Assembly (NCBI RefSeq): GCF_000002865.3
Contig: NW_001865072.1
Span: 22,562-86,561 of the forward strand
DNA length: 64,000 bases
DNA from: Monosiga brevicollis MX1
Taxonomy: Eukaryota; Opisthokonta; Choanoflagellata; Craspedida; Salpingoecidae
Direction of reading: 5' to 3'
How positions within the stretch are numbered: position 1 is the stretch's first letter; each line of letters opens with the position of its first letter. Positions 2,095 to 43,267 of the stretch are shown one piece after another. The notes beneath the pieces were generated by a model. That model was not told the origin of the DNA. It saw nothing but the letters and a program-made list of their open reading frames with translations, and made no database searches. The position numbers and the translations under genes are program-made.

Positions 2095-2132
<38 letters not shown>

Positions 2133-4438: not shown

Positions 4439-4489
<51 letters not shown>

Positions 4490-9183: not shown

Positions 9184-12100
9184 ATGGAGCATCATACTGA
9201 TTCTCTGATCCTGGGTGACGATCTGGTATGTCTCAAACCATGTCCTTCTCGCCACCTTCTGCAAAACACGGCTCACACAACTTTTCCTGCGTCCTCAGAA
9301 TGGAAAAGCGGTGGCTTTGCTTCTCGCAAAATGTCGACTGGAAAAGTCAACAGCTGCAGATCTTGGTGTTGTGGTCCACAAAGCAGTTGGCGGGAAATTT
9401 CGCCGAACCCGAGCTTACCTTCACTTGATCAGCTTTGAGCATGATCCTCAGCTCGATTTGCTCAAGGTTTCGGGAGCTTTGCGAGTCTATCGATACGTCC
9501 CGCCATCTACATCACCGCCATCCACAACAACAGCATCTTGGTGGTCAAAACTCACAGAGCTTTTTAAGCATGACGAGCAAGACTCTGACAACAATCTGTG
9601 GGAGCAAGAAGCCGAAGATGAGACATTCCAACGTTGCCTCGGTGACTTTTGCAGTCAACAACTTGTACAAATTCTTTTTTTGGTTGCGCGTGACAATCCA
9701 AGCCTCTGCTTAGCCTACCTGAGGCACAAGGACGAGGACGCTATGATGCTTGCTGCACTTGAGACGGTTCTACGAGGTACGCAATTTTCTTTTTTGACTC
9801 TCTGAAAGATTCCCCAAAGGTTGCGCTTAGTTCACACTCCTACATCGTACCCTTCATAGAGCCAGCTCGTTCAGGCAGCTGGCACAGCATGACCAAAGGC
9901 AAAGGAATTCTCTTTATGCACTTTTGGGAGCGCGATCTAAAACTGAAAGCATGGAGCCTCTTTACGCGCATGCAGGACGCCAAGGATGGTCTTTGCGTGT
10001 TAAGCAGAATCTTACCTCTCAGCGACATCAGGGTCGAGGATGTCGCTACGGAGCCTCATGTGCTGCAGTGGCTGACTGAGGCAACAACATATTGTTCCAG
10101 CGACCTGGTATGCAAGGCGTCATTCCTTTGGGGATTGACGGACAAGCACAGCGGGTTGTTGCACGCGCTTCAAGAGAACATCAGAAAAACTGTGGCTGCG
10201 ATGATCACAGACTTTCGTGAAGACAGACAACAACACGCTGCGGAGCTTGCGAGTTGTCTTGTGCCAGAGCAACGTTGCTGTAGTCTCCGTGCAGCCACCT
10301 CTCTTGCCCTTGGCTCTCAACTGGGAGATCTCAACACTATCTTGAACGATTGTGATGCTGGCACATTGCAGCTTCTCTGCTGGCTAACGCAAACACAAGT
10401 CTTGATGCCATCACCCGCACAGCTGAGCGCGCCAACCCTCTCATCAGTGCTCTTTGCAGCTTCTCGCAACGATCCTCGCCTCCTCAAAGAAATGACTTTG
10501 GGGCTGCCCCAGCTGTCGCTGCTTGCACGTGTTTGGCCCAATGTTCGTCCAGACGAGGTCAATAGTTTGAGCGACTTTCAGGAGTTTATCGATGAATGGC
10601 ACCTCCTTTATTCAGAGCAAACGCTAGGAGCAGCAGACCTTTGGCGCCAACCAGCACTTGCCCTTTGGGACAGCCTGCTTCAACATGAACATGATTGGTT
10701 AAAGACACTGGGGGCCAGATGGTTTTGCCAGTGGGCCTGTCAAGTCACACAGGCTTTTGCAAAGGATGCCAAAGCCATCGAACTTGTCCGTTTGGCAGAG
10801 ACTTGGTACAGATGGCGAGTGAGCTACCAAAGCCACACAGTCTCAATCGGTGAGGCGTCTATCAACAAGGTGCAGCAAAACTTGGAGAACATATTCAAGG
10901 CCAAGGTTGAAGATCTGGATGTTTCTGATCTGGATTCTCTTTTGAGTGCATCTGCACCCGATGCAAACCTCACGTGGCCTGAAATTCTCGAGCGTTGGAA
11001 CGTACAAGCAGCTCTTGAGACTTTGCAGACGCGCTTGCAGCAGTCGCATTTGCATGACTGGATGCATGCTTGTGAAAACGTACTTGCCGTGTGCAAGAAG
11101 CATGTCTCTGTACCAGCTGAGTGGCACGACGCCGTGCAGTCCAATGGACGACTGTTGATCCAGCCTTGTGACCATGAACCTCTAGCCTGCGTCACGTCGG
11201 AGCTCACCGAGCTGTTGGGCGTTGCAAGCACCATCTTCGACTTTTCAAAGGGTTTTACAACACAGCAGCTGATCGAAAACACAAGAGCCCTTGCTGACCT
11301 CAAAAGACGCTGGCCCATGCCCCTGATGAGTGTTGCTTGGAAGATTGGCAAGCGGAGCCCTTTGCACCTCGATACTTGTCTTGAATATTTAAAAGAGCGT
11401 CAGACAGTCAACAGTGAGGAGCTGGAGCGCATGATTACGGAGTCGATCGGCCGTTTTGGTCAGGCGCCATTTACCTTGACTGTGACAAGGCTTTACCTTT
11501 GGCCCTACACAAGCATTCCGAGCGAATACTTTGCTCCACACCCGCCGTCGTTCAACGACCTCTTGCCCTTGGTTCCAGACCTCATGCGCCTCATCTTATT
11601 TGCAAAACGGCTGCGACTCGCACAGAGCTTTGAAATAATTTGCGACTTGGTCGATGGCGTTCGCGAGCTTGCTACTTTTGGGGACGCACTGCCACTTTGG
11701 CAAAAGCCATGTCCGCCAGAAGAAGCACAGCCCATGGCGCTACTATGGGAGCGCATCTGGTCAACAAGCTTGAACCAGAAGTTGCCCTTGGAGGCCATTT
11801 TCCCCGTTGAGCAACAGTCAGAGCTACTCGCTTGGAGCAACAAGTTGATGTCGCTGCCGAGCCATTTCAATGACGTGACGTTCGACCAGTTCTTCAAACT
11901 GTGCGATGAGTCAAAGATTTTGGAAAGTGTCAAGCGATGGCAGGCGCAAAATATATCCGAGGATAATTTTCACAAGGCATTCACCCTCATGCAGGGCACG
12001 CGCGTTGGTGGTGACTTTTTTGGCGCATTGCATCAATGTTACAATGTGTTCAAAGCAACCGGTCAAGGTACTCGCCCATCATTGCCTGGGGTTCTGGCAG

Positions 12101-15100
12101 CTCTGAGCACAACTTTGAAGCAGAACGCTTCGCGTCGGCCTATTGGCGACTTTGTCATTGATCATTTGCCGCATCTTTCCACTGTCAAAGACCTGCTTGG
12201 TCAAACAATGAGTAAGGCGGGCCGCGAAGAAAAGGACGCCCTCGTTGTCGACGGCTGGCTCGAACATTTCAGGAACGATGAAGTGGACGTGAGCTTTCTC
12301 CTTGAATCCTGTGATGACAATGATTCTAGTCTTGCCATGCCAAAGTGCGAGCTACGCCATCAACCTTCACAGGAAGCGATTGAATGGCATACCTTCGTGT
12401 CGATTTGCGCTTCCATACAAGGGCAAACTAGTCAAGCCGAAAGTCTAGCCGCGCTTGAGGCCCTGGTGGATGGAGCACTGGGTCAAATGGCCGTGCTTCA
12501 CGCAGAGCGCGCATTTGGATTTGCATTGCCTCTGCAGTCCAGTAAAACTCGCCATAGCTTTCGCTTACAACGCGATATCAACTTGCTCGAGCGCTGGAGC
12601 ACCTTTCTCAGCGCATATGCCAGTGCGTGGGCTATGCTGACTGCAGGCGCTGAAGGGGCACGACATTACTTGAAACTGCGTCGAGGCTTTAGCCCTGTAC
12701 AGATTGCGCAAATGGAAGCTTGCGTTTCTGGTGAAGCCAGCGGCATGCTCACGGCATTTGTGCCCGGTGCCCGTTTGCAAATTACCTCAAGTCACAAGCG
12801 GGCACCAGCTTATACACAATGCCAAAGAGAGCATCAGCGTGGCCATGATCTCCTGCCGATTCTACAAGATCAATGTCGGGCTCTTGATGAGCTCATCTGC
12901 AACATGACACCCACTGCACAAGTGGTACCGGTTGGTGGGAGGCTCTGGCAACAGCTTGAACTACCCGCCAACAAAGCAATCTATTGTCCCCGGCGCAGCG
13001 ACCAGCCCCTTGATAGCTTCGAGCTTCCAGCTTTGACTCAGCTTTGTGCGCTGTGCACAGTAGCCAGCGCCTTGTCGCGCACATCGGACAAAATCACGAT
13101 TCCACCACCATCCGGCTACCTTTTTCTCACGTTGCAAAGCGATGAGGAGATGCTTCATGCAGTCCACGAGCGTTGTGCGCGCGGCACGTGGATGAGCGAA
13201 TCGCCGCTGTTGGTCTTTGTGGAGTCGCTTGAAGCCTTTGATTTGCTTAGATCTCAAAGTACAATGTCATGGTCAATGCCACTTTTGATCATATGGATAC
13301 ATTTGGAGCCAATGGATGCCAACAAACCGAATGATGTCACAGAGGTGCCACTACTTGATCAGGCTAGCATGCATGCCATTGTATCAGGCTTGATGCGCAA
13401 GCAAAGACTTTCTATACGGTTGGTCTGCGATTCCGAAGTCAACGATGAGGCGAACCCTCGGTGCAAAAGCCATTTTATCAGTTTCAAGCTCACAAAAATC
13501 GCTGAACAAGAAGAGCACGTCCGCCGAGTCGTCGTTGGACGGGGTGACGCTTGTGAAAACATTGTTCAGAGACTCTCTGGAGCACCGAATTACCGGCATT
13601 GCTGGTTTGATGTTGCAGCAGCAAATCGCATCATGGCTAAGGTGGTGTGGGACCTCCTACTTTACGGAACGATTTATTCAGAAACACAGCAATTAACGCT
13701 GTCTGGCCACGATCGGATCATCTGGCTCGAGGTACACTATGCTCCGCTGGCTTGGGCCCATGTTTTTTTGCCACAAAATACAGCATTGCCTTGGTCGGAA
13801 CCATTGCTACAACAACTGTGCCCAGCGCCGCTCTCCTCTGCTTCCGCCGCACGGCGGCTCGTGCAACAAGCCGCTGCAGCACGCTGGCTGGCAAAAGCCG
13901 AAAATATTTGTGAGCCCACCAAAGTTCATATGCAGTGGGCTCAACTTTTGTTTCAGCGACGCACCGGCGCGGGAGCGAATGCTTTGCCGACCTCTAACCA
14001 ATGGCTGCGCTGGTTTGAAGGTCAGCTGAATTTGGACTTTTCAAAGATACCTTTACCTTGCTTTCAGGGCAATGCCGAGGTCGTCTGGTGGGAGCCAATG
14101 CAATCGGACGGCGCCGCTTCTCCCGAACAGACTGTTCAACACCTTGAAAGTGTTTTGAAGCAAGTATACGGCGAAAAGCAAGTACACGACATGCACGCTC
14201 AGTTTACTGAGCTGGTTATGTCCCCCCTCTTTGCGGTTCGGCTTGTAGTCTTATCACTACTGTATCAGCTCCGCGGGCCAATCATTCTGGAGGGTGAGAC
14301 AGGTGTGGGCAAAACCTACCTTCTTCGTGTTTTTTGCGCATTGCTGGGTGAAAGCGTTGCCTTGCACCAGCTGGACATGCTGCCGAGCACCACCGGGGAG
14401 GACATAATGACTTTCCTCAAGGCCGTGCCCTCGGATTCAAACTCGACACAAATTGCGTTTCTGGATGAAATAAATTGCAGCAATGCCATTGACGTTGCCG
14501 CCAGCATTGTCAGCGAACCCTCTGCCATTCATGCAACGCAACAGCAGGGCGGCATTTGGATTGTGGCGGCTTGCAATCCGTTCCAATCGCGTGAGGCAAG
14601 CTATCACGTGTTGCCCATGCCTGATCGTCTTGAAGCTTTTGTTTGGCGCCTCGATGCGCGCTCTCCAACGGAAACTGAGTTTCTGTTGCGTCGTTTGCTG
14701 GAGAACAACGAGGCACTGCAAGATCTCAATGAGAATGAAAAGGAACTGGCTCTTGACACGGCGCTCAGACTGCATGGAGAAGTGCAATCCCTGGCTGCTG
14801 CCCCGAGTGGCACCACAGTCTGTTCGCCACCTTCGACACGAACAATCGTACATTTGGGACAGCTTGCCACCTTCTTGAAAAGCATTTTGCCCTTGAGTAT
14901 TTTCGTCGTAAACCATGTCGTCCCTCAAACATCGCCCGCCTTCTTGGTAGCGGTAGAGTGTGTCTACCTCGCTGGCTTGCCACCTGAGCAAGCGTCTGAA
15001 GTATTGGCCACAGCACACTTGTCGCGAGATGCGACGTGCCCGACCTATTTGCACTCGCAAACATCAACAGCTTCCTCTCTCGGTTGGCTGGCTTGCGCTG

Positions 15101-18100
15101 CCAACTGGCTAATGAACGCCTGTGGCTTTCACCAACTGCCGGGCATTGTCTTGACGCACTCGCTGATGATCAATACCTTTTTGCTCTTCTGCCACATCTT
15201 TGCCCCCGTTCCATTGTTTGTTGTTGGAGAACCTGGAACGTCAAAATCTCTTTGCCTTCATCTCATATTTCAGTACTTCTCCTGCGATCCCTTTGCTCGT
15301 GTTGAGGAGCTGCGGCTTCTGCCGCGCATCACAATGAGTGTTCTACAGAGTTCTCCATTGCTTACGAGCGCTATGCTCAAAGAAGAATTTGAACGCGCTC
15401 GACAGTATCAGCTTGCAGCGGGCGTGCGCACGGTGGTCTGTCTCGAGGAAGCAAGCCTTGTTTTACCCGATCCAGTCAGACGCTCACAGCCGCCAACGGC
15501 ACTCAAAGCACTACATTCACTATTGGAAGAGCATGGCGAAGAACGTGATCCTGAACAGCCAAAGTGTCGTGTCTCGTTCATATGCTTGTCAAATCACCTT
15601 TTGGATTCAGCCAAGCTTAACCGTGGCACCGTGCTACGAAGCCCCACACTGCACTGGGCTGATGTTCAAAGAGCAATTCAATCGCTTTTTCAACTTCCAA
15701 GCCAATCCACAGAGGAGGAAAGCGGCTGTGCATGGAAGGAGTGGTGTGACCTGTTAACGCTCATGATTGGTGAGTTGCAGGGACAAGCGCGCGATGTGTA
15801 CGCATTTTTGGGAGATACCAGGCACCTACTGGCTGCCGCGGCCACGGCCTCTGGTAACCCCCACCCTGCACCATCATCAGATACGATTCGCTCCGTCTTG
15901 CGTGCTTTCGCTCGTAATGTTCAGGGCAGCTCAGCAGAAAAGACCTTTTGTGAACGTTGGCGTGACCAATTTGTGAACACGTTTCTTGATTGCAAGCTCG
16001 GTGATCTTCGTGCCGCAACCAGCATGTGGAACGATGCTTGGCAAAGGTCATTCACGCTTGAGGAGGCTTTGCTCGCGCGACAAAAGCTGTCAGAGCACGA
16101 TGCACCAAGCCCGGTGACGATTGCTTCTCGCCAGATCTTGTGCATCACGGATCTACCTCTCACTAACGCATGGGCTCAGCTTGCGCTTGGTTCTGCTCGA
16201 CAACAAAAGATGAAATTGTTGTTTGCGCCTGCGCGACGCTATTCGAAACTTCAGAACGGCTTCACAGCCCATGGTCACGACGCGTCGTATGACGCACAAG
16301 CTTTGCAAGTGCTAATTCAAAGCCTAGCAGAAACCCAGACCATGGTGGCTAGCGTCTCGAATGATGTGCTTCTCAGCCTGCTTGATCTATTCAACGGACA
16401 CTATCACAGTTTTGATGGTGTTGTCAACTTGGCTCGGGTCGCTCGCGGCCCGCGCTCCAGTCTAGTCAGCATGCGCCAAGATCTTGACTTTGTGGTTGTT
16501 GTTTCCCAGGAACAAGCGCAGCTCATGACCCCAGCCCTCGCATCTCGTTTCTGTAAGATTTGGGTTAATATCGATTGCATTGGTCGGCTCGCGTATGACA
16601 AGGCACAATCCTGGCCTTTGCAACAGCGAGTGGAGGAGGTCATGTATGAAGTTAACCCTTTTCTACGATGGACATTTGAGCCAGAATGGCTTGCAGCCAT
16701 GCTAGAAGTGGATCAAGAAGAAGAGACCCAATCCCAGGCTGAGTTCATGCTCTCCGTGCTCACCTCTGAGATTGTTCGAGATGCCAAGCATGATAAAGCA
16801 CTCAACCTCCTGCTTGAGGAAGCTGAGGACTGTTTTGTGGTGGTGCGCTGCGTAGCTTCAGAATGGGACATCAATATCCTCGCATCTCATTTGAAGCAGC
16901 AACTTAGCGCCAAGGGCTTGGCTGTGAAGGAAACGTCCACGCTGGGGAACGGACGGCCGTGCCACTTGGCTAGTTATGGTAGCTCTTTCCAAGCACTGAT
17001 ATGCGTTCTTGAGGAGCAGCCGTGGGACCTCTGTTCGCGCTTGTCGGAAATTAGCCTCAGTCAACTTCAGACATGTTGGGTTCTGCTTAAAAGTCCCTTG
17101 GCAATCGAAAAGCCCTGCTTTCGGGTTCCGGAGTTTTGGCATTTACTTGCTTTTTGTCCGCCAAGCCCTGGGTTCCAAAGACTAGGCAAACTGCTCGCGG
17201 AAAGTTCGCAGCGTGCTTTGCCAAGAGACCTTCTTGAAGCTGTCGTTACCTTGAAGACCGACCCGGCATCCGCCCCTGCTGCAACCAAGGAGCCGTCATC
17301 CCTTGACGGCATTGTTACACCGCAGCTATATTGCGAATTAGCCAGAGACTCAGCACAAAAGCGTGCTCTTGCCACCTCAGCGGCGTCGCGCCTCTTCGCC
17401 CTGTCGAGTCCTTTGTTCCCTGAGGTGCTTCATCTTGCTCAGGATGAGCTGGCTCTCCTCCAACATCAACAGCTTGCCACGGGAGTGGAAGTTTCGCTGC
17501 AAAAAGTACCTGGCTGGCCAAGTGACAAAGATTGTCCCTGGCAAATCACTGTGGAAGCACCCGCGAAGGAACAACAGGATCATTTATCACCTGTGCAGGC
17601 TGTGTTGGAGTCTGTACGGAGCATTAAGACTGTCCGCCGCTTTGTCAAACTCACAGCAGATCAGTGGCGTGTCTTGAGCGATGAATTTCATCATCTCAAG
17701 CGAGGTGAACAATCTTTGCAGCAGTTGGCTGAAGCGTCCAATTGTACGCTGCAGGCCAAGGCTTCTTGCAATGACCAGGTTGAACTGTGTGTCCTGGCCT
17801 GCCGCGAACCTAAGGCGCAAACCTTCTGCGAGATGCTTCAGCGTATTTTGAACACTGACCTAGTTGTGATCTCTACCGACATTCGCATTGCGGACACTCT
17901 AGCTGATCGCCGCAATCGGAAGTTGGCCTACTTACTGCTCAAACAGAGAGGCCGTGCGCTGACTTTGCAAGGCAGTGTGACTTGGAAGCTTTACGAAGAG
18001 CACTGTGTCATCACTGGCTGGCAGTTTGAGATGCGCGCTGCTCGCGAGAGTCTGATTGACCACATTCAGAACTTGGAGAGGTGCCTGAGCTTCAGGTACT

Positions 18101-19158
18101 GTTGCTTGCCTGCAACCGTTTCGCCCATTGCGAGCATGACACGCCTCAACAATGTTATGGCCCTTGAGCTTCAAAAATGTGAACGAGTGCATGTGCCTTC
18201 CGTTTATCAGCATCACTTCACGCAAGCTCAGTGGGAATCCGACACTCGGCAACAGATCAAGAGCAAGCTCCCTTGCACAAAAAAACTAAGCGCCGGATTC
18301 ACGCAGTGGCAAGCTTGGAAGCTGTGTGGAGAGGCTGCCCTGGTGACCGAAGCGCACACGGAATTATACAATTGGTTGCGATCACACTGGGGTTCCGAGA
18401 GATTGGGACTCATCACGACAGCCCGCTTTGAAGGGCTTCTGGATCAATTGCGAGAGCTGAACGTGGAGTGGCGTATTGAAGCGGAAGGGGGTCTCACGAT
18501 TTGGGCTGAAGTGGCCCAAGTGAACACTGCCCGGAAGCTGTGGCAGGACCTGGAAACAGATGAACAGCAACGGCGCGCTCGGGAACAAGCTTCACATCGC
18601 AGTGAACTTCCGTTTCCTCAGCGAGAATGCGATGAACGGACGGAAAAGTTTTGTTCATGGCAATTGCACAAGCCAACTGCTGCTGCACACCCAGATAACG
18701 CAGCCTATGGCATGGCGTTGTCTCAATACGAGGCTATGGGTGGTGCTAAGGCTGAAGTCAAGCGTATTGATATGATCAAGACGATTGACGCTTTTGACCG
18801 TTATCAGACTCTCAAGACAGCGTTTGCGGCACAAGGCTATGGGACTGAAACGTGGATTTTCCATGGCACGGATGTTAAGAACCGGAGGAGCATCCAAGAA
18901 CTTGGCTTGGTGGTGGGTGGTGAAGGCGAGGTTCCAGTGGCACGAGGGCGAGCTTACGGCCCTGGCATTTACTCTGCCACGAAATGCACCACTCCCAAAA
19001 GTTATGGCAAACTGATCATTCTCGCGCGTGCTTTACAAGGTCGCAAGGGGGCATCCTGTTCTGATGGTGATTGCTGGCCGGGGGGAGGTGCTGACGTGTG
19101 GGTATTCCGAGACAAAAGCCAGGTGCTGCCCTTATTCTTTGTTGAATTGCATTCATGA
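9184..19158 (+). CDS. Giant RNF213/mysterin-like AAA+ protein with C-terminal PARP-like domain (gene A), 3272 aa
   Basis: Exons 9184-9225, 9299-9776 and 9860-19158, with introns of 73 and 83 bp. The first donor is GTATGT. The sum is 9819 nt, in frame. About 1600 N-terminal residues are helical without clear motifs. The first AAA+ unit has Walker A GETGVGKT at about residue 1652 and Walker B IAFLDEIN at about 1709. The second has GEPGTSKS at about 1963, VVCLEEAS at about 2036 and, downstream, ALHSLLEE and LDSAKLNRG. These correspond to the RNF213 second-AAA signatures that I recall as LHPLLE and a DPAKMNRG-type motif. In RNF213 the double AAA core is followed by RING and E3 modules; I find no RING cysteine pattern here. 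Residues about 2420-3050 contain repeats that look KH-like. The C-terminus (about 3140-3272) resembles a PARP catalytic domain: WIFHGTD (His at 3175), RAYGPGIYSATK (Tyr at 3211) and a final LPLFFVEL strand. The usual catalytic Glu seems replaced by Leu, as in mono-ADP-ribosylating PARPs. Gene B converges on it 216 bp downstream. Confidence 0.85.
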
Positions 19159-19374
19159 TGACATTGTATTTTGCCCCACGTAAATACATGTTCATGTATT
19201 TCAATCAATTGATTTTTCTGATGCGAGAAAACTTCACATGTCTAGTGATAATTGATGTATGAAAGTGAAACGAGGAAAAGAATTGACAAACAGAAGAAAG
19301 ACATGAACATCCGGATGTAACAACCGGAACAAGAAACAACATGCCTGATAAGACGGTCGTTAACAATTCACATA

Positions 19375-22300
19375 TCAATCAAATAAACCAATGTCATAAT
19401 GATGATCATCAACTTTGGATTCCTTCACTGATGACTGCCATTCCAACAAGACCCCCTTGACATCATCGCAGCTGTGTCGAAGCCTATCCGCTCGCTGCAA
19501 CAGGTTATGGATCAAGTTGAGCAAGGCCTCGTCAGCTTCGTTGGGCCAAGGCGTGCCAGTTTCGTAGTTTTGAGCCACATTTTTCCAATAAGTCGAATCC
19601 CAAAATTGCGATACATAGTGGTCTTCGCCCTGGCCCTGTTGATCTTCACAAAGACTGCGGAAAGCTCGTGCCCATCTTGAATGCGAGGCGTCTCGGCCTT
19701 TCCAAAGCGTCAAAACAGCCTTGTAGTCCTTATTCTCTGCCCCAAGTTCTAACGCCCTGCCCACAAACTGATGTGAGACCATGGCCTTCACAACGAGGAC
19801 TTGCGAAGCCGTTGCATTGGTGGCAAAATCGAGAGCATGCTTGATGATGTTCTCCTCGGCAACTTGCAAATCGCTGCCACGGGCCTGGCAAAAGAGATCA
19901 ATGTTGCCATCTATGAGGAGCCAACTCCAAAGCTTTTGCCTCACCCCCGGCTGGTCACAGGCACGCGCCCAGGTCGTCGAGCTGTCCTGGGCATTGCTTG
20001 AGAGCAGTCGACGCCAGAGAACATAACAAACAAAATTTGGATGGCTTTGTGCAAACACATGCCAAAATGTGTCGAAGGCAATCCGTGAACAAGCGTGTTG
20101 CACCACAAAGCCCGTCTCGTCTTCTTCAGCGCCAGCAAGAAAACTACGTTCAGCCAAGCGGACCAATTGCTCATCGGGCACAGCCGTCAAGCAGGACAGC
20201 ACATTGCCAACATCGTGCAGAAGATCTTGAAATTGTTCCAAGTTCGAAGGCGGGTGAGAACTCCAACTTTTCTGAAGGTCGCTCCAGTTGATTGGTCGGT
20301 GGTGCACCACGTGGTCGCGAAGAGTAGCAAGATCCTGTGCCTCGTGATCATTGAGTTTGATGCCTACGCTTAACCAGTTGGCTTTTGAGTCTGCGGCATC
20401 CTCCTCAGCTGAAACGATTAGCGGAAATCCATCCTGGTCGAGCCAAGTGAATAGCGAATCGCATGGCTCCACCTTCATTGAGGCTCCGTTGCTTTCAAAC
20501 CCCTCAAGCCATTGTGAAGCGCGTTTGAGGGGTGGCCACTTCTGCATCGCCGGATTTGAGAAGGCGTCTTGCAAGCTGTGACATGTTGTTGAGTCAAATT
20601 TGGAGTCTCGCGCTTTTTTCAAGGCCGCACTCAGGAGCAGGTCAGACAGCCCACGCTCGTCAGGGCGTGGCGTTTGATGCAAGCACACCATGTTAACGAA
20701 AATGCTCGCACAGCGCGAGGCAAACTCGCTTCCCAAGGCCGGTGCTTTTGAGATTAAGGACTCTATCAAGCAATCTCTCAGGTTTTTTGCCCGCGACTCT
20801 GCATCCTGATATCGGTCCCACACCAATGACCAATTCTCCGCAAGGGCACGCCCGTTGCGCATCGAGAGAATTGAAGGGCCAAATAGAATACGCAGAAAGA
20901 TGAGCCAGCGGGTCAGGTCGTCTTTGATGCCGTTTGCATTGTCATGGCAGTTCTGCACAATGAAGTTAGGATCGAGTTGCACCTCCATTTCTTCAATCTT
21001 CACGTCGTCCTTTGTACAGCCAGTCGACTGCACATGGCGACGAAGATCATCGAGCAGGCCACTGTCTTGACGCAGCTTGCGATTGCCAATAAGCAGCACG
21101 TTGAGCCAGCTTAAGCGAGGAGTTATCCAATTAAACAGCTCACGTTTATGGCGTAGCCCAAGCAAATGAAACTCATCTGCAACGAGAAGCGAAGGGCGGT
21201 TTTCAACGGAGAAGTATGTCGCAAGTAGACTGCTCAAGGAGTTCATAACAAGGCGGTCGTCGCTGCAGTCAAAGCGATGGCAGATGATTTCTCCTGAATC
21301 TCGCATGATCTCGTTGGCCGTGTGCGACTTTCCCGCGCCTGGAGGGGAAACCAAAAGCATCACGCGGCGGGGCATGAAGCCTTCAAAGAAGTTCTTGACC
21401 TTCTGCTGCCAGTGGGCACCTTTGAAAGATGCTGCTTTATCGCCTTGGGCAGGTCCTGGTGGGATATCGTTGGCTTCGTTGGCATCATTCAAGTTGAAAG
21501 CGCGCTGGTTCCAGCGTGTCAGGCCACTCTCGGATGCTGGATCGGAGCCTCGAGCAAATTGAAACCGGTCTCTGATCTCAGGGAAGCTGAAGCGAATTGA
21601 CAAGTCCTCGAAATAGATGAACCGCCAAGGGAAGCGAAAGGTGTACTCGCAGCACCATTTCAAAAAAAGATCGGTTGCAGCGCGGATGCCTCTTACATAC
21701 ACCATGTGGGTGTTTCGATCAAAGAGCCCAATAATGGCCAAGTATACTGCGGCCGGGGCCAGATGCATTTCTTCGAAGACGTACTCTTTGATGCAGCTCT
21801 TGATCAGTGGCATATTTCGCAGCTGATGCAGATACGCCTTGCACACGAATACACCGTAACGGGCGTCCTTACGACGCAAACACATTTGCAGCTCGCTAAA
21901 ATTCTGAGAGCCGGAAACCGGGTCGATGCAGCGTTGCAGGGTTCCACGCAAGCTATCTTGAGGACAGCAGTTGGCAAGTGTTGTCACAATTAGGCGATCT
22001 TCCGGTGCAATCTCCAATCCAAATGACGATGCTGTATTCTCTCCTTTGCGCAAAATTGCAAGAATGCGCCATTTTGACACATGCTGGATGGGCGAACGCA
22101 GGACATCGAGAACCCATGCCCTCAGCTCAGGTTCCTCCCTCTTTGACGAAAAAAAGTCAAGAGAAAGCAGCATTGCAATTGTCTGAGTGTCACCAGCCTC
22201 GAATGCAATTTTGTCGTCCTTGCGCTGGCGAAACAGATCGAAAAAAAGGATGTCGTCCTTGGAAGTTTGGCTTTGCGCGAGCCGTTCACACAGGTTTCTT

Positions 22301-30643: not shown

Positions 30644-33600
30644 ATGGACGCGAATCGCCGCCACCGCCCCCGCCGAATGCAGCCACAGCCTCCGATCGAA
30701 TCAAGTCAAGAGCTCAGGTGTGTCCGATCGCGTGTACGCTTTGGCTTCACTGGCTCAGGCTCATGCACCTATTGCTTGATGATGATCATTGTTAGTATTT
30801 TGAAATTCATCGACTTGCACGAAAATCAACCGGCAGTGAGGCGGCGGCTTGCTCAGTTGCTTCGCTTGAACGAAACGTATCAAGACAACGAAGAGTATCA
30901 AGACAACATCATCTTCGATGATGACCGACACCGCGAGCTAGCCAGGTTCGTGCCAGCTTCCCAACAACTCTCGCGCTCTCGTTGACAGTTAATCTCCTCA
31001 CCATAGAATGATTTCTTTTCTAGACTCGACATCCTCAGTCATGTTGATCAGCAAGCATTCAAAGAGACGCAGAAGAGATTGCATCAACTTCTGCGTGAAT
31101 GCCCTCTTTTTGAGCTCTTGGCTCGCTGCAATGATGACATGACAGAGCTACCTTCGGCAATCAATACCTCTCACAACATTTGCCACACCACTCTGATTCA
31201 AGAATATCTGCTCGATCGCGAGCAATGGCTTCCTATTGCCCAGTCACTCTGCAAGTGGGTGCAGGAGCGCGTAGTTGCTGAGCCAACTTTAGCCGCGGCG
31301 CTTGGCGAGTCTGGCGCTCATAGCCAGAGCAAAGCCGTGGGTAAACGACTTTGGCAGCGCCATCTGCTCCCTGTGCGCTGGCGATGTTGCGCCCTTGCTC
31401 TTCAGCCAAACTGTCCGCCCTGTGTGTCCCAGCTGGCCTCGAAACAAGCTGATACGGGAGATGCGCTGCGCGAGCTCAAGCACATTGCTGGCCAGATGGA
31501 GCAAATTGCTAGTTGGCTTGAGGGACTGGCTTGGGTTGCCATCGCACATACCAAATCAAGAAGCAGCGACCAACTCTTGCAAATATGGGACACTTTTCAG
31601 GAGATGTTGGTGCCAACCGCCGACGAAATTAACTTTGAATTTGCCCTCGCTGTGCTCTTCCAAAATCAACTACCTGCCCTGTCAAACGCACTGCTGAGAT
31701 CCAACGACTTGGTGAAGGATCTCAACACCCTGAAAAGCAACTTGAAGAAGCGCAACGACCGAAAGTTATCCTTGAAAAAGCCGTTGCAAAATGATCGAGC
31801 CAAAATCATCCTCCAGGTGGCTATGGTTCCGTTCCGCGAATTCTCGACCGACACTGACATGCGTGCCAATTTGGACTGCTACGACGGCACTCCACAAGAT
31901 TTGAAAACAGTCAGTCTGACGATAAATCAACCCCTTTCCAGCAAGCCTGCGCGGCCCACGCGATCTGAAGCGTTGCTTCAGAGCAACATCATCTGCCGCA
32001 TCGAAGGGCCAAGCGTTAAGATGGTCGGCGGCGATACTCTCCAAGTCATTCAATATGTACTGCCCTTGGATATCCAGCTTTGCCTTGTCGACTGCGACCA
32101 GAGTTACTTTGCTGACTTTCGATCGCATCTCTTTGCCACCAATCCCAATGACCTCTGGCTTCTCCAAAGAAACTCAAAGTTGACGGAGGATCCACAAGCC
32201 ACGGACCTGGATACGTGGTACACCCCACAAAAGGCAATTGAAGACTGTGGCGCCTCTCGTCTTGTCTTCAAGATCAACAATCAGACGTTTGAATACAACC
32301 GCAACACGCTGTGCTTTCTACCACTGGATGGCTCAGCATTTGACTCACACGAGTTTTTGCGCGTAGCACCCACCCGTGCTCACTGCCAACTGAACGGCAT
32401 AGTTCGTCCTGTGCTTGTTTTGGGCATGCAAGTCAACTGTGGGCGACGCCGAGCATCGAATTTGAGCGAGCTGGAACAGCTTAGGATTCAGCAAGACAAA
32501 ATGATCGGCACTGGCAATTTGCAAACCATTTCTGTGGACGCTGAAGTACTGACGGTCGCCCTCTTTGCCTACTTTTATTGCTGGGACAAGCTTCCTCGAA
32601 ACGGGTTTGATCGATTGCGTCATCATCCTCTCATTGCCGATTTCAACGCTCCAGCCATGCGACAAGCTTTGCAGCAGTTGACCAACAAGTCAGGCTTTGT
32701 GCTTGACAGCTCGTACTGGAATGAGCGACTCTGTCTGGAGGCCAACGCCAGAGCACAACCCGCCGAGCAAGTTTTGCGGCAACTCCTTTCCGAAGAGTCT
32801 CACTATGAGCTCAACTTAATTGCCGTGTTGAGCCCAAAGCTCTTCGATGAGGTCCAACGCCTTTGCTTGCAGGGCTCGGGAGGAGACCGGCACAGCATGT
32901 GGCGCCCCACAATCTTGCGCTTCAATGTGGATCGCAGCAATCTTGAAGCTGTCAAGCAAAAGCTGTTTGGCCTCGCCGCATCCTTTTTATTAACTATTGC
33001 GGTCGTGCAACTTTCTTCCCAGCTGGCGGCCAACGACATCTTGTGGCTGTTGGCCCCCTTTGCCTCCCCCGCTTGTTCGATTCGCTTCATTCTCCTTGAC
33101 ACATGCTTACACCTCGAGGAGCTCGAGACTTCAGACATTGGGCAATACCTATTTTACGGCGAGACCAGGCCTGAGACGAAAGCTCCACGGTTGACATTGC
33201 TGGGCGCCGAATCCCAGGTGGAGCAAGCCATGCTCAAAGCACCTGTTGTCACTGAGCCACTGTGTGAACAGGCGTGGTGCGACTTGAAAGACCAATGTGC
33301 CAAAGCTCGACAATGGATTCCTGAAGCCTTGGATGCCTTTGCCAACAAGCGCATGGTGTTTTTTGTGCATCCGGACCGAGACACGTGCATCAATGCTTCT
33401 CGTCAACTTTGCCAAGAGATGGAAAACAAAGAGCGAACCCGCCTCGAGACGTCCATGAGCACTTCGCGAGATAGTGAGGGTCACGAGTCAGATTCGAAGC
33501 CCATCTGCACGCTGCTCAAAGAGCTTAATGCCACCGCATCAGACTTTTTTCAGTCGGTTTCGGCCATCATTCGCAACAGGGCCAAGCAGAGTGGTCATGC

Positions 33601-36600
33601 GCGCGTCCAGCCAGTGGTCGCTGTGTCCTCAGCCAATATCTTACAACCACAGACTCTCAAGGCTCTGCTTTCTGAAGCCAACGATAACGGGGTTTGCTTG
33701 GCTTTCTTCTTTTCGTCTCTTGATCCCCAGATCCTTATGACCGCAAGAGATGTTCTGAGCATTGACCCTCGTGTATTGAATTACTCTCGTGGATTCTCTG
33801 CCTTGAGCGTCCTTGGTTGGCCCGAGGCATTAGTGGATTCCAATGCATGTCGCCAAGCATGGTTCCTCAGCGTTCTTTTTGGCTCGCGTTTTTCCTGGAA
33901 TATGCTCAATGCTGTAGCCAAGAAAAATGGCGTCCCAGTGCCTTTGCCACATAGAGCAAGCGCAAGAGAGCATCGCCTAATCGATGCCATCAATGCTTTG
34001 AATGCTCCGGATGATGAGCAGAAGGACTTGCTTCAGCAGCTCGTGGCCCGTTTGCACGATGGATGGTGCGACCTGTGGGGAGAAGGTCAAGACCAGGCCA
34101 AGTCCCAACCTTCCCTGGAGCTGGTTTTCGCAAATCCAGCCTGGCAGCTTTCTTGCCCTGGCCATGCGGTGCGCAAATGGATTTCTTGCGCCTTTGGGAT
34201 CAAGATGGATGAAGTGCAACGCAAGTTCGGTCTTGTGCCAGACGTCTTGCAGACAACGGCCCCTGATCTGTTATGCTTTGCTGCAGACGAGAAGGTCAAT
34301 GCAAAGTCCCCTCCGGCGCTATTTCAATACAATGTGAAACGGCGCTCTCCTCGGCAGAGCCTGACCGAATACTTGATGCGTGCTGCCATGCTCGGATATG
34401 CCTTGGATTGGAGAGCGCTCCCTGCTGCATTTACAGAGCACACCATGAGTACTCAGACGTTCTTAACCATCCTCACCAGCAGCGCACAACCCATTGTATT
34501 GCTCTGTGCCATATCTCCTGCAATTTTGGACACTCAGTTGCAAGGCGCCTCACGTGTCATGCTGCGACGCTTGTATTCTTGGCTAGCTCCGACCGAATCA
34601 GAATTTTCTCTCCTCAAGCTGGCTCAATTCTACATTGAGCAGGGGTCAGATTCAGCTCAGCCTGGTCTAGCACAGCTCGCCATTTTACTACTTCATGCTT
34701 GCAAGGATAACAACCCGTCCTTGATTTCCACACGAGTTGTAGAGCTGCTGATGAAGCATCACATTTCATTGCGCGTAACGGCGGACAAGGTTCTGCCTGT
34801 CTTGAACATTTTGCTGCGACTTGATGGCCCCCCCAATGCACTCTTACAACAGCAAGAGCTACTGGCAGTAGTCGAAACGTGTCGTCCACGCGACCTCGAC
34901 GGAGCCTTTGAGGAGCTAGCCGGCAGGGAAAAGAATGCTAGCATCGGACGCGTGCTGTCAGACACACTTCGCGCGCCCACATTGCCACCAGGCAGCGTGT
35001 TGCGGAAAACAAGGCTTGCAAAGGTCTTGAGTGGCATGTGCGGCGCGTCGGTTTTACAAGCGAGCGCAGAGCTGGTTGAGATGGGCTTGCGACTCTCTGA
35101 CGGACTTTTGGCTGCTTTGTTTGAAGACGTCTGTCGTCACCATTCTACGCAAAGTGTTGCTGCCACATTCAGCCTCCTTTTAAAGCTTGAATCCGCTGTT
35201 GACCCATTGACTCGACTACTTCAAGTGCTGAACGCAAGTCACCAACTACCAGATGGGCAACTTCTTCTTGACGTATTGCAGAACGTTCGCCCAAAGGACA
35301 ACACTTGGGACAACACTAATCTTCAACACCACCGCTATGAACGGGAATTGCAACTCCTGTTTGCACTCATTGGCGCAGAGCCTCATGCAGCAGCTCGTAA
35401 CATGATTGCTCTGCTTGAAAAAGAGTCTGTGGCTTCTGATGACTTGAAGCAAGCATGGCGCTCAAAGAAAAGCCAGCGAGTCATTCCATTGGAGCTTGAC
35501 GAACTCAGCAGCATCCGCGAAGAGTTGGTGAGTGCACTGGCCATTTGCCACGTCGATGGCCTTGCATCTTTGGTCTTGACTTTGGAAAGATTTACGGGAT
35601 CACGAGGCCTGGCCAGCATACTCAGGACCACTGCCAACATGCTCAAGCGTCCACAACCCAATACTGTCCAGCTTCAACAGCTGTATTTGGGCCTATGGAT
35701 GTGTATTCCGACGGAGCACTGTGAGGTTGACCCCGCGGCTCAACAGGAGGGATTGCAAATGAAACCAGGCGCCTTTGACCAACTCCTCAAGTGGGCACAG
35801 CATGATTCTCTTGGCCTGTACCAACGCTCCAAGACCATGAGTGGCTTATCGCAATTGGCTCAATGGCTGTATTGGCCCGAAACCTTGCCATTGGTGTCTC
35901 TGCTCTCAATTGAAGAACGATTTAGACCCGTTTCACGGCGAGAGGCGAAGCAGCGCAGTTTCAGCCTGGCCCAAGCGGCTTCTTCTGAGCGGCAGCTGTA
36001 CACAACGGTCGCCCCACAATACGTTGACATGAATCCGGCCTTGAATGAGTCCCTGCAAGCTGTGAAAGTGCTTTTGCAAGGATACACTCAACGACCACCG
36101 TATCCCTCCATCGTCTATCTTGTGGACTGCGGGCACAACAAAGACATCTGTGTTTACAACTTGGCAGCAATGGCCATGCTTCACTCAAAGTGCCTGCGCC
36201 CCCGATCCTTGGAGGAGACTGATGAAGACAAGAAGAATGTTGCTGCAAATCTGGCATATATTCACAATCTGCTTGGAGTGTGGTTTGCTTTGGGTCGAAT
36301 CTCACATCAAGACCTACAATCTCACCTGCGAGGCCTTCTCGAGGAAGACTATGAGGCCTTTGCGCCACTAGCCAATTATCAAGCCGAGCCATGCCGTGTG
36401 GCGGTCCCATCATGCATCGACGTACATCACACTGATTCAGCTGTCCTCGTGGAGCTGCTATCTCCAAACCCCCAGCCCGTGGACCGTCGCTCGACGATTG
36501 AAGTGCTGAACCTGTTTGGTGGCCCATTTTCTGTTGCTGATGTGGAAAAAAGTAATGATCTGGAGAAGTTTCTTCAGATCGCAGAAGACCGCATGCTTGC

Positions 36601-39600
36601 TGGCTTGAATGACGCCACACCTGTTTCTTCGAAAGCAGCGGCCTATGCTTTGGCGATGCGACTGTTTTGGGGTCGAAGTGAAGGCTACAGCAGAAGCGCT
36701 TCTAGGGCATCTGTTTGCAGAGTTTTTCAAAAGGTCGCGCAGAATCGCTACCATCGTCACTTTTTCAGGCATTTTTTGCGCACGTTAGGCTTCAACGCCC
36801 AAGCGTTTGACGTAGATTCGAGCTCCAAGTCTGCAGCACTGCAGATTGCCACACACCTGGCGTCGACGTTGATAGACTTGGAAGATCCCTTTCCGGTCTG
36901 TGCTGCCACTTTGCGAGAGCTTGTGGCTTTTGTTGAAGGTCATGGCATGCTATCAAGCGATGAGATCAAGCGTCTCAAGAATTTGCGCAACGAGCCTGTA
37001 GATGAGCCAAAAGTACCGCCTTTAGAATATACCACGCCAGCGTGTGAAAGCGAAATTGCCAAGCTCTTGGAGCACCGCCACTTGTGTTCACGCCAAGCTG
37101 ATGGCTTGGCCTCTGAGCCACACCAGGGAGTCGCATCGCGGAAAGCCAATCCATTAAATGTTATACCTTGGTCAGACGGTGGTGCTTTTGACAGCCCGTC
37201 GCGCAAGTTTGGATCTCTTCCAGGCGACAACGGCCGACAGGGCTTGATCAGTTTCTCACTTCAAAGTCAGGAGGGAGTTGTCGTTCGCGCGCCAGCATTA
37301 TTTCGGATGCAACAAATATTCGCTTCCAAAGATGATCCCAACAAGGCATGTTCTGTGCTTGGCATTGAAATTTTACAAGGCCCCGGCGGCGTTCTCGTTG
37401 CACAAGATGTGACGGTTGGCGGCTTATTGGTGGCGTCCAGCACCCTTGTTTTTCTCGACAAGCGTCACCTCAACGCCAAGGAAGGAATCCCTTCCGGATA
37501 TAAGCCTGTCCAAGCTTTTCCTTCACATGCTGCAGCCTTTTCGTTCTTCATTGAGGACGCCCCCGCTAGCACGCTTCTCGTGGGTGAGAATGTGATGTTG
37601 AAGCGAGTAAGCGGTGGCAATTGGCATCCAGTTTTTACCCACAACTCTCGCGACTCCTTGCCTGCCGCTCTCAAGCCAAGCTTATCAGCACCGACGAGGC
37701 GACTGCTCAATGATTTCGGGCTAGCCCAAGAGTTTGTTGAGTTTGTTGCACAATTAGTGGAGCTGAGCCGTTCTCTTCCAGGACAGGATGCCGAAACGCG
37801 ACACCAGATTGCAGATGCACTTCAAAAGTGCGAAGACACAGGATCAATCGCGCCATTGGAGCAATTGACAAAAAGGCATTTCTCTGGCGAAAACGACGGT
37901 CTGCAAAGGCTCCTTCAGCAGAATCTGAGGCATCAAAAAACTTGTTTTGAAGTTTTGATGACCCCTGGGTTACATGACAACTTTGACATAATCAACTTTT
38001 TGCTTCGTGGATTGCCATCTTTGCCCGAGCGAAACGAAGGCCAATTTGCATTCATGCCAGCAAAGCCCGAGGATATTGTTGAAAAGTCCGAGGATGCTGT
38101 TAATCAAGACGATTATTTGTTGTTCGATTTGCCATCCAACAGCTCGCGTGCTTCTTCAGCTGCAGCTGTCGGGTCTGAGGAGTTCGTCTACGTCTCAAGC
38201 GACTCTGAGGATGTGGAGGAGTCTCGCGCCAGCAGCGCTTTGAGCCTTTTTGATGCTGACGAAGAAGCTTTTACGCGCAATACGAGCGTCAATTCTATGG
38301 AAGAGCCGTGGCCAGCAAGATCCGTGTGGCAGGTGTATCCACACCAGCGCCTGTCTGCAGAGTTTGAGCGTGCCAGTGACAGCCTTCAAGGGAATTTTTT
38401 CGGGTTTATCGTGGATAGCCCGATGAATTACACGAGCCATGACATGAACTGGATTGTGCAATGTGCTCGAGCCCCCCTTGCCCCAAACTTGCGAGACTGG
38501 ATCTTGAAGACGTTTTTGGATCAATCTTTTCTTCAGTGCGCTCCTGAGTTGCAGACAAATGCAAGGATCAGTGAACACATTGTTGCCTATAGCTTAGCAG
38601 AGCGGTGCCCGATTCCCAATGTGGCTAAACGCTTGATGGCTGCCTTTGCCCTGCCACACCCCCTCAACAAGTATTTTGGGCACGTCTCGGGCGAGTTTGG
38701 CATCTATATTTGTGACCCGCCCGTGTATCAACAGCTGCACAACGTGCTGCACATTCCCATGCGCACTGTGGATGTGGAAGTTTTGCGAACGCGTGGCGTG
38801 ATTGGTGAAGATCAGCTACTTTTGGAGATTCTTGGTCAATTCAAAGACAACATCACTCTGGTGTATGTTCGAGGCATGGACACCATTCCAGATCTACTCC
38901 TCAAGTGGTGTGCCGAGTATACCAAAAGCGTGGCCTACCATTACATTTACCTCGAATCCACAAATACAACCAAGAACTTTGTAGAGAATCGAGATCGCTG
39001 CAACACATCCTTGTATCATCCACCTTCATTGCAAGAACTAGAGCTTGCTGCAATTTCACAGCCCGGCATGACCTCACCGCAAGGCGCTACCAACATTGCT
39101 TTGGCCACTTTTGCTCCTCAGTTGGATATTTCTTTCTCCGATGCCAGCTCCCTGGAGAGCCATCACGCTTGTGACTTTCAAAAGATGCCCAACACGACAT
39201 TGAAAGGCAGCTGGAAGCGGAAAATGCTGACATGGCTTGGCTTGAGCAAGGCACAGACTGCAGAGGAAAGTCAGGCAGTGAGCAGCGGTCAGCTTTCTGC
39301 TTTTGTTGTGTTTTCGCCGCCTGGAGCAGGCAAAACTCATTTTTTGGACAAGGTCGTGCGGCCACAATGGGAGACAGTGGCGCGGCGAGAAGTCAGAGAT
39401 TTTGACTGCAGCTCAAAGCAGCTTGTGGAAGAATCTTTGGCATCCGTGCTCTCCAGCCGTTGCTCGGGCGCTGCCAAAGAGTTGCTTGTCGTGGCGGATG
39501 AATTTCATATGCTAAATAAAGCCCAAAAGCTTGAGCTCTTTGCAACACTTGCCGAGAGGGCATTGAGTCAGCCATTGCGAGTTATCTTGATTGGAAATCG

Positions 39601-42600
39601 TCGGGAAAAGGACGACGACGATTTATTGGCTGCGTGGAAGGCTATGCCTGCAAGTGGCAACATTCAAGACGTGTCAGCGCGGCTTACGGTCGTAGAGCTC
39701 CATGCAAGAATCGTCCAACTCGGTCTGAATGAGAACAAACTCCTTTGCTGGTATGCCTGTTGTCGGGCCCTTTTTTCTGACCATGTGTTGACCCTGCGCA
39801 ATGTTGAGGCAGCCGTCAAATGCAGAGCCGAGCCTGCCAAATTGGCGCATTTGCTGTTTTCAAAAATGCCCTCGCTTGGCCAGTTGGCCTCTCGTTGCAT
39901 CACTGAAGCCATTTTTAGCTATGTGGAGCAGTTTGCTCTGGGATGGAAGAAGGAAGATCGGGACACACCAGCTTCCGTTGGACTCCTTCGACTACTCCAA
40001 GAAAGAGATGATGATCCTTTGCGTCTGCTGGCCAGAGTGGGCCTTGCATCTGCCTCGTTTACCAGCCAAGCTAGGGCTCATGCACGTGTCGAGAACACAG
40101 AGGTTGCAAACAGCATTCTCAACAGCGATGGGAGCGTGGAAATGCTTGAATCAGACGAAACAGTCTTGATGTCCTATCCCGAATTTGCTGATGCTTTCCC
40201 AGGAAGCCACAAAATGCATCCTGTGCTTCGACTGCGAACGTGGATTGGATACATTCAATACAGATTGAGCGAAGAACTTGAGACAAAGATTGAGCTGGAC
40301 TGTACGTCGCTAAGGCGCTTGGTGTTGATTGATCAGCCGGGATTCCCACTTATCACAGGCGTGCTTGCCATGCAAGGGCAGCCCAATTTGAGTGAGTGTC
40401 GAGCCTGGAGTGAGACTGGTGACTATACAGACTTGGAATGGATTCGCGTCTCCCTGCAGCGAAATTTGGCTATCGACTGGCAGCGTGCGCGTGACATTTG
40501 GAGCACGTACTTTGTGACTGATTGTGTGGCTTTTCTCAACTTGCTGGACGAGGCTCCAAATAAGGCAGTTGTGCTCTCGGCCGTGGCTCCCATGAACCTT
40601 GCCGCGCTACTCCTGTCGTCTCGCCATGCCAAGCATGGACAGCAGCTCGCTGACCTGGTAGTTACCATGATGTGCAAAGATGAGTCTGCTGAACACACAC
40701 AAGGAAACCTAGGGGATTGTCTCGATCCTCTTTTCCTCTCCCAATGGCTCACGTTTACTTTGCGAACACCAAACCTTTTGACAAAGTTGGTTCCCCAGCA
40801 GCGCCGTCGGTTGTTGATGTGGGCAGCGCAGCATCTAACCAAGGACCTCAGCAGCACTTTAAATTCCGAATGTAACGCTGCCTTGCTTGCGGCTCTCGAA
40901 GAAGAAACATTTCAACTGATGGAACAAGCTGATTTTGACGCTGTGCGTCTGTTGTGGTCAAATCACTTTGCATCTCACTTTCCAATACGCACATTCACTG
41001 CCGTGCAAAGTTGCGACGCACATTTTGTGGTTGCCGACCAGCCGTCAGCACACAGTGCTTGGCCCGAGGAGCTCGGCTGTCTCCATCGCATTCTTCATGG
41101 ACAGGTTGAGCTGCAGGATCTCAACCTTTTGGCTAGCTGCTTAGCAAGCCAAGAAAACACAACGATAGCCGGGTTTCCGCACGAATCGAGCCTACACCGG
41201 CGCTTTGTTCAAAGCTTGGTGAGTGAAACTGTCGTTGATCCTCTGCCAGCAGCATGGCAACGAGCACTCGTTGCTCAGGTCGCCGAGCCATGGATGAGAG
41301 ACGAGGACCTTGCAAAAGTCTTACGAGACAAGGAATACGTCACATGCAAACTGTTGGCCGGTTTCTTAACAGTACAGCGCGCAGCTGACATCTTTCCCAA
41401 ATGGGACCGCAGGCTGAAGTCGTGCGCTGTCGTCAGAGAACACTTTGTTCAACTATTTGGTGTGGATGACCTTCTAGAACGCCAAGGGCATTTGAAGACA
41501 CTTCACGAGCAGGCAGTGCGGTCTGAAGAACAACGCCAGAAGGAGAAAATGAAACACATTCGACGCGTCTTACCGCACGTGGCCGAGCGACCGCAGATCT
41601 TGCGCTTCTTTACGGACCAAGTTGGTCGGACGGCCCTAGCTCAGCTTTTGCACCAAGGCAAAGCCGAAGAATTTGACGAATTTCGCAATCCGCGCACAAG
41701 CAATTTTGACTTGGCGCGTGATGGGGCCTTCAATCAGCAGAAGATTTTGATTGGCAATTTTTTTCGTGATTGCTTGCACCAAGCCAATGTCAAAATTCCG
41801 AGCGGGACTCAAGATCGTGTGAGGGCGCTCTTAAAAAACGGCGGCTTTGACGATGACGAGTTTAGTGTTGGATCTGATTTTGTTCGAATCATTACGCCAT
41901 ATCAATCACTCTCCCGAGTGGAACAAGACGCACGACTCCAGCGATTGCTTGCCGTGCTCCAGCAAGGCCAGATCCCGTCGAGCGTGACGTCAGTTAAAGA
42001 GATTGCTTTCAAATTCGAAGGTTTCTCTCAAAACCAGCTGCGAGACAACATTGCAGATCGTTTGCACCAAAAAGGATTTCAATTGCAGATTGAACGCGAT
42101 GAGGAAGAGTTTTCATGCCTACTCTTGACGGGCAACTATTCAGTTGCGTGGGTCATTTCTGGCAGCTCCTATGTCATGACAAAGCGAGGCAAAGCGTCGA
42201 CTCGACGCAGTCTTCGACGATTAGCACAAGCATGTGCAACCTTTCACGCTGCTGGAGGAGGTTTGTTTATCTTTGGTGACAATGACCCATATGTCCTGCA
42301 TGCCAATGCAGTGCTGGCAGCCGTGGACGTTGGCTGCAGGCTTGACGGCAATGTAGACGGTAACAACTTTGTTTTGCACAAGGCCAACACCAATCCGCCC
42401 GCAACAGTGGAAAGCAAACGGTCAGGCGGCTGCATCAACAACGAAGACCACCCAATCATGACCGGCATTGCTACTCTGTTTGAAGGCATTACCATTTGTG
42501 TACCGGACCCCTCAGACAAGTTCGAAGAATTCTTTGATGTTCTTGCTGTGGGCGGGTACAAGCATGACTCAACGGAACGCCCAGTGCCCCTGATTTTGGC

Positions 42601-42859
42601 CAGCAAGGATGCGCGTCGTGCTGCTTCACGGGGACGCATTGTGGTCGATGGAGGATTTACTAAATTGTGGTCCAACTGGAAGGTGGGCGGAACAGATCGC
42701 TATGTTACCAATGCAACGGCCTGGCTCACGGCCGTTGACCAGGAGTTGGCCATCAGCCCCAAGCAGGAAGGCATTTTCTCCATACCTCGCAAAAGGGTTG
42801 GTGCTGAAGTCGCTCTCCCCCCCTCATTTGAGGGCTGGCTTCAACTAAATTGTCCGTGA
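30644..42859 (+). CDS. Giant P-loop NTPase with C-terminal ThuA/GATase-like domain (gene C), 4019 aa
   Basis: Exons 30644-30717, 30796-30945 and 31024-42859. Both introns are 78 bp and in phase 2; the sum is 12060 nt. The first intron is a multiple of three without a stop, so its removal is inferred from its GTGTGT...TTAG ends and odd translation. The last exon is 11.8 kb. The N-terminal two-thirds are helical. Residues about 2690-2760 contain VYVRGMDTIPDLLLKWC, shared with gene B. The P-loop SPPGAGKT is at about 2839-2846, Walker B LLVVADEFHML at about 2900, and sensor-1 VILIGNRR follows. Beyond the end of gene B, about 450 extra residues hold a flavodoxin-like domain (about 3770-3990) with GGGLFIFGDNDPY, HPIMTGIATLFEGITIC and VDGGFTKLW, resembling ThuA/class I glutamine-amidotransferase folds. 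No nucleophile-elbow cysteine is evident, so a binding role is possible. Function unknown. Confidence 0.82.
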
Positions 42860-42900
42860 AGCTATAACAGGCCCGCAGTCATGTGATCGCTTCAAGTCTT

Positions 42901-42906
42901 AATAAA
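42901..42906 (+). terminator. Polyadenylation signal AATAAA of gene C
   Basis: A canonical AATAAA starts 42 bases after the gene C stop codon. Confidence 0.6.
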
Positions 42907-42925
42907 GCCCTGGCGTGTGGGTCAA

Positions 42926-43136
<211 letters not shown>

Positions 43137-43267
43137 NNNNNNNNNNNNNNNNNNNNNNNNNNNNNNNNNNNNNNNNNNNNNNNNNNNNNNNNNNNNNNNN
43201 NNNNNNNNNNNNNNNNNNNNNNNNNNNNNNNNNNNNNNNNNNNNNNNNNNNNNNNNNNNNNNNNNNN
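43137..43267. other. Assembly gap (Ns)
   Basis: 131 undetermined bases at the end of the CT repeat. Confidence 0.99.

Follow-up and report, generated by a model that had tools for sequence, protein, structure and literature searches.

A cluster of three giant genes in Monosiga brevicollis: an RNF213-type AAA core with a PARP-like tail beside two giant AAA+ proteins with a common core

A cluster of giant genes

The stretch of DNA analysed here (hereafter, the window) covers 64,000 nucleotides of Monosiga brevicollis MX1, namely positions 22562-86561 of contig C23 in a 39.5-Mb genome of 57 contigs; positions below are those of the window unless another contig is named. It carries three neighbouring giant genes, A, B and C, with exons joined via GT..AG introns that preserve the reading frame. 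Their first exons and start codons are predictions from sequence. Gene A (9184-19158, +; 3272 aa) consists of a predicted exon 1 with the ATG (9184..9225), a predicted exon 2 (9299..9776) and a long third exon, open to the stop codon in the frame scan (9860..19158), separated by GT..AG introns at 9226-9298 (frame kept) and 9777-9859; the acceptor of exon 3 was picked from several in-frame candidates, and its exact site is a prediction. Gene B (29825-19375, -; 3427 aa) begins with a predicted exon 1 (ATG; 29802..29825), followed by a GT..AG intron that keeps the frame (29801-29726), exon 2 (24131..29725), a second intron of 91 bp in phase 0, identified by eye (24130-24040), and exon 3, found by frame scan (19375..24039). 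Gene C (30644-42859, +; 4019 aa) has two short predicted exons (30644..30717, with the ATG, and 30796..30945) and a third exon with a long frame, found by the same scan and open to the stop codon (31024..42859). Thus modelled, each giant gene has two predicted introns, all of them 5'-proximal except for the second intron of B.

The original prediction spoke of about 10.7 thousand residues in three giant genes, and the models add up to 10,718 (3272 + 3427 + 4019). Its two distances were reproduced as well: 216 bp separate the stop codon of A from that of B (19159..19374), and an 818-bp spacer (29826..30643) with an internal GT-rich repeat lies between the ATG of B and that of C. From stop to stop, the open frames measure 3131 codons for A (9763-19158, +), 1554 and 1891 codons for B (19375-24039 and 24068-29743, both -) and 3950 codons for C (31007-42859, +). 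When this stretch was simulated 200 times with a first-order Markov model, the longest stop-free frame reached 373 codons at most and 240 on average, against the 3950 codons observed; A, B and C are therefore maintained genes.

Several other features surround the cluster. Beside A, on the reverse strand of window positions 1-8571, there are two OrsD-type frames, one of them below the cut-off, and a DEAD/helicase frame, which may represent a helicase element that is mobile or associated with telomeres. The 22.5 kb to the left of the window consist of N, which bears on the idea of a subtelomeric location. Downstream of C, frames with receptor L domain, guanylate cyclase and kinase matches occupy 43712-51084 (-), and a 5S rRNA gene is found at 47691-47809 (-; 104.6 bits).

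Gene A: an RNF213-type core and a PARP-like tail

Residues 1081-2472 of A (12580..16755, +) form an RNF213-type dynein-like AAA core. Compared by hhalign with a profile of 19 RNF213-type sequences from which A had been left out, they align in a single collinear stretch (E 8.7e-50, probability 100, 18% identity) that reaches residues 1257-2703 of R1, the RNF213 of the same genome. The units identified in this core are AAA2-AAA4, the alignment stopping short of the expected AAA6. Both AAA3 (14197..14829, +; bounds approximate), with Walker A GETGVGKT, Walker B FLDEIN and sensor 1 ACNP, and AAA4 (15142..15669, +; bounds approximate), with Walker A GEPGTSKS, Walker B CLEEASL and then SNHLLDSAKLNRG, have intact Walker A, Walker B and sensor residues; the Walker B of AAA4 reads LEE, with Glu replacing the first Asp. 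The P-loop of AAA2 is absent from A. Residues 1-1080, where the N-terminal arm would sit, do not align with the RNF213 profile, and a genome search with the N-terminal stretch (9862-13902) found nothing besides itself. Past residue 2472, no alignment to RNF213 was obtained. On the long frame of A, Pfam gave AAA-type families, apart from a few matches at chance level; neither Pfam nor Cys/His patterns revealed a RING, and for the RZ finger (PF20173) there was likewise neither a pattern nor a Pfam match.

Of 7983 candidates scored with residues 1400-2110 of P0001 as the query, 32 proteins, A included, reached E 1e-3 or better. The 31 relatives of A comprise animal RNF213s, plant, fungal and protist proteins and other database sequences; two of them, P0034 and P0038, match only over short P-loop stretches. 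A RING pattern occurs in 11 of the 31 and an RZ pattern also in 11, as opposed to neither in A; these patterns are strict and miss some cases, and precomputed annotation assigns PF20173 to more of the relatives. The best-scoring relative, P0008 (2980 aa, ena), shares with A the RNF213-type core (26% identity over 945 columns) and the loss of the AAA2 P-loop; unlike A, it has a C-terminal Cys-rich RING-like module (Sina_RING, E 0.05) and no PARP match.

The genome holds RNF213 genes proper on another contig, C31. One of them (36335-50041, -) is open over 4569 aa and shows both the RING and the RZ pattern; a second copy, with RZ (246.8-258.7k, +), lies behind a run of N and is 93.5% identical over 3987 residues. 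Each is one long open frame over the stretch examined. PF20173 has three matches in the genome, the two C31 copies and one on C10, and none on C23. An apparent frame of 8732 aa on C31 was discarded as an artefact spanning a 10.7-kb run of N. Compared with RNF213 (mysterin), an AAA-type E3 ubiquitin ligase, A is similar in its collinear core, its AAA3 and AAA4 motifs and its giant size, but it has lost the AAA2 P-loop, and in place of RING and RZ, which were not found, it ends in a PARP-like tail. We thus rule out that A is RNF213 proper. Since two RNF213 genes exist elsewhere in the genome, A is a distinct variant, most likely one in which an ATP-gated core would be combined with a different effector.

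The PARP-like C-terminal domain (18742..19158, +; PF00644) contains the motifs HGT, GPGIYSAT and DVWVF. Its profile match depends on the length searched: PF00644 was not matched by the whole frame of A, reached E 6e-4 with an 803-residue segment, and reached E 6e-5 with the last 193 residues alone, where the score of 23.1 bits is below the curated cut-off of 26.7. Among solved structures, four PARP14 sequences were the best matches (E about 0.1). Closer counterparts exist in the same genome. The tail shares 36-42% identity with a PARP-type gene on contig C52 (at 1351.9k), which exceeds the PARP cut-off (34 bits), and 29-33% with another on C20 (at 263.9k), which falls just below it (24.3 bits). 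HGT and GPGIYSAT of A, with their His and Tyr positions, are kept in the alignment with both genes; HGT and GIYSAT are presumably the catalytic His and Tyr motifs of PARPs. The third catalytic position, assigned by hand in this alignment, is Asp in all three, while in PARP1 we take it to be Glu, the Glu of polymerising PARPs. Given this Asp, the tail of A may be mono-ADP-ribosylating or inactive. Thus, the claim of an RNF213-like AAA+ protein with a PARP-like tail stands for the core and for the tail, and falls only as far as it would make A an RNF213.

A PARP-type C-terminal domain likens A to PARP14 and other mono-ADP-ribosyltransferase PARPs. PARP14 also has KH-like repeats before its PARP domain, and by eye the roughly 600 residues between core and tail of A look like such repeats; a comparison of this linker (residues 2470-3099) with PDB and Pfam gave nothing meaningful and leaves the KH-like reading without support. 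Unlike PARP14, A has no macrodomain, WWE or RRM in Pfam scans, is attached to an RNF213-type core and carries Asp at the third triad position. A profile built from the three tails (A, C52 and C20) found no match in 43 retrieved proteins, including the 31 relatives of A, although it does detect the genomic PARPs used to build it. As some of the 31 are perhaps C-terminally incomplete, the absence among them is soft.

Genes B and C: a separate AAA+ family

The conserved core of B (residues 2515-3235; 19954..22116, -) has Walker A SPPGAGKS, Walker B ADEFHLL and sensor LIGNR; that of C, an AAA+ core (residues 2551-3359; 38450..40876, +), reads SPPGAGKT, ADEFHML and LIGNR. Walker A, a DE-type Walker B and sensor 1 (GNR) are all present in both. 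The two cores are 25% identical (E 8e-37; E 2.1e-30 by profile). A profile made from C, P0006 and P0007 matched nothing in B outside the core. The original prediction of two paralogous giant P-loop proteins is thus borne out for one core and not beyond it. AAA_22 (PF13401) and AAA (PF00004) are matched by all four B/C-family members compared, at E up to 1 (best 1.3e-5); B passes the PF00004 cut-off (24.3 bits against 21.2) and C falls below it.

Within the genome, residues 2541-4019 of C find only C and B, and the last exon of B finds only B and C; two candidates were scored in each of these searches, and distant copies could escape them. The stretch of C preceding the core matches itself and a single 118-residue piece on contig C35 (614086-614439, +), a partial copy of C that shares 95% identity with residues 936-1053 in the query stretch.

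Wholly or partly, the core of C is common to B and 12 database proteins. Two of these are full-length relatives, P0006 (4861 aa, lgn) and P0007 (4600 aa, jgi), both presumably of metagenomic origin and the only matches outside the window to reach E 0.01 when 1876 candidates were scored. They resemble C over several collinear stretches, which include the core, parts of the N-terminal region and a domain before the C-terminus; unlike C, both end in a vWA domain. The 10 further family proteins, some of them partial, are 574-1527 residues long, the alignment search being limited to about 430-1380 aa or slightly more. No vWA was found in C, whose frame stops at 42859 with an AATAAA 41 bp further on; a vWA in a downstream exon was also considered and gave no sign in six frames up to 43720, 131 bp of these being N. 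The domain that precedes the vWA in the relatives is kept in C as residues 3738-3990 (42011..42769, +). By eye, it resembles class I glutamine-amidotransferase-like folds, and neither Pfam nor PDB offered a convincing match. Predicted structures of this domain (mean pLDDT 37, from 3 rows) and of the C core (mean pLDDT 47, from 4 rows) were too poor for a fold search.

Midasin/Rea1 and MoxR-vWA systems also combine an AAA+ ATPase with vWA. In contrast to them, C and its relatives have one detectable AAA+ domain and no MoxR-type match among the Pfam matches listed. Long frames ending in vWA are also present elsewhere in the genome, on C51 (70155-78524, -), C31 (68311-76551, +) and C44 (453403-458307, -); by BLAST, they have only the vWA in common with P0006 and P0007. 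The Pfam scan, which covered the C51 and C31 frames, found a weak SecA_DEAD match in each. Kinship to defence systems was sought with PADLOC, run on A, C and the final portion of B, and was dismissed, the results being weak P-loop matches only (mad8 at E 3.7e-4 in C; IetA at 0.023 and mad8 at 0.05 in B).

In a tree of 13 rows, from which P0047 was omitted for partial coverage, C, P0039, P0006 and P0007 compose one group without B (support 100/99). A clade uniting B and C is rejected (p-AU 0.0026; 12 rows, P0046 and P0047 omitted), with the caution that the branch of B is very long and its exact placement unsure. This topology makes a recent tandem duplication of B and C unlikely. Overall, as far as sequence comparison goes, B and C represent a separate family of giant proteins built around one detectable AAA+ ATPase domain.

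Possible functions of the three giants

According to PMC12075652, RNF213 acts as an E3 with a broad antimicrobial range and becomes active once its AAA core binds ATP, binding at AAA3 and AAA4 being both necessary and sufficient to promote this activity. We consider A, by this analogy, to be an ATP-gated ADP-ribosyltransferase-like machine and B and C to be separate, remodeller-like AAA+ giants, a reading to which we assign a probability of about 0.5. The RNF213-family dynein-like core of A would use the ATP sites retained in AAA3 and AAA4, the PARP-like domain would occupy the place of the RING/RZ ubiquitin-ligase module, and ATP binding by the core would license the tail to modify nearby targets. 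The B/C family may act in the manner of AAA+/vWA remodellers, with the ATPase driving a conformational cycle; in the relatives of C, the vWA would hold a partner via its metal site, C itself terminating before such a domain. We infer ATP gating, ADP-ribosyl transfer and remodelling alike, as well as any role in defence. Against an ATP-gated PARP, one may point to the lost P-loop of AAA2, a unit at which mouse RNF213 carries ATP according to PMC7311170, to the sub-cut-off PARP match and to the Asp at the third catalytic position.

These last two features of the tail also feed the main rival to this reading, according to which A is an RNF213-type protein with a catalytically dead PARP-like tail, whose function would be that of a reader or a scaffold, comparable to TASOR, which is described as a pseudo-PARP (PMC7532188). 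The PARP score is weak, and the Asp assigned by hand recurs in both genomic PARP relatives; yet the tail retains the His and Tyr positions in HGT and GIYSAT, and the recurrence of this motif form in two separate genes of PARP type elsewhere in the genome is what one would expect of a maintained type. We regard a dead tail as possible but tentative, and an ATP-gated PARP-like enzyme as the likeliest reading of the sequence. As for B and C, they could in principle be divergent RNF213-family members, the cluster then being one expanded family. In both, by eye, the P-loop domain is preceded by an alpha/beta stretch without a P-loop, reminiscent of AAA1-AAA2 of RNF213, and their best hhalign matches there are AAA3, AAA2 and AAA4, with pairwise E values of 0.002-0.007. 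However, the probabilities are 5 to 14% in one direction (best 13.6%) and 2 to 5% in the other; being so low and scattered over three AAA units, they indicate generic P-loop similarity. A, compared with B or with the profile of C, showed no similarity past the P-loop, and profile comparison found no specific kinship of B or C with A or RNF213. A single expanded family therefore appears quite improbable to us.

It is tempting to suppose that the three neighbours constitute a single co-regulated module of defence or stress, in which B and C would be transcribed from a common bidirectional promoter. The genes adjoin, B and C diverge around the 818-bp spacer, and their third-position GC is alike (0.532 in A, 0.541 in B and 0.542 in C), lower than in seven of eight flanking open frames (0.525-0.707). 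In addition, RNF213 has a part in cell-autonomous immunity (PMC12687431, PMC12075652), and PARP14 is described as interferon-induced (PMC12084362). On the other side, B and C are separate lineages in the tree, and the accessible portion of a paper on bacterial exposure of M. brevicollis mentions neither RNF213 nor PARP (PMC8592570). A weaker point is that, among the 24 of 31 relatives of A with a stated contig size, none sits on a contig equal in size to those of P0006 and P0007 (29,882 and 26,567). The argument for one system is thus adjacency and like composition, and genes that lie side by side need not form one system; we find such a module doubtful. No relatives were confirmed in viral contigs or prokaryote genomes, and, with regard to a possible foreign origin, the third-position GC of the three genes (0.53-0.54) is only slightly lower than in the genome's RNF213 (0.575).

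A fusion of RNF213-type and PARP domains was not reported among the matches listed in our search of the literature on RNF213 with PARP, PARP14, evolution and domain architecture, a search mostly outside subscription papers. Nothing was found that pairs RNF213 with choanoflagellates, or M. brevicollis with PARP, ubiquitin ligase or giant proteins, and the terms AAA, ATPase and RNF213 are all absent from the main text of a PARP survey (PMC4245714).

Finally, we would like to put forward a broader idea, which we hold only tentatively: the AAA core of RNF213 might be an ancient module for sensing ATP, to which different C-terminal effectors can be attached, namely RING/RZ in RNF213 itself, a different RING-like module in P0008 and, in A, the PARP-like domain. 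On this view, A would tie RNF213-type ATP sensing directly to ADP-ribosylation, and B and C would be partners encoded by the adjacent genes. An ADP-ribosyltransferase-like tail on an RNF213 core would suggest that the sensor is reusable, and would connect ATP sensing with both ubiquitin and ADP-ribose. What B and C contribute is a family of AAA+ giants, some members of which have a vWA domain, found here only in this genome and in database sequences.
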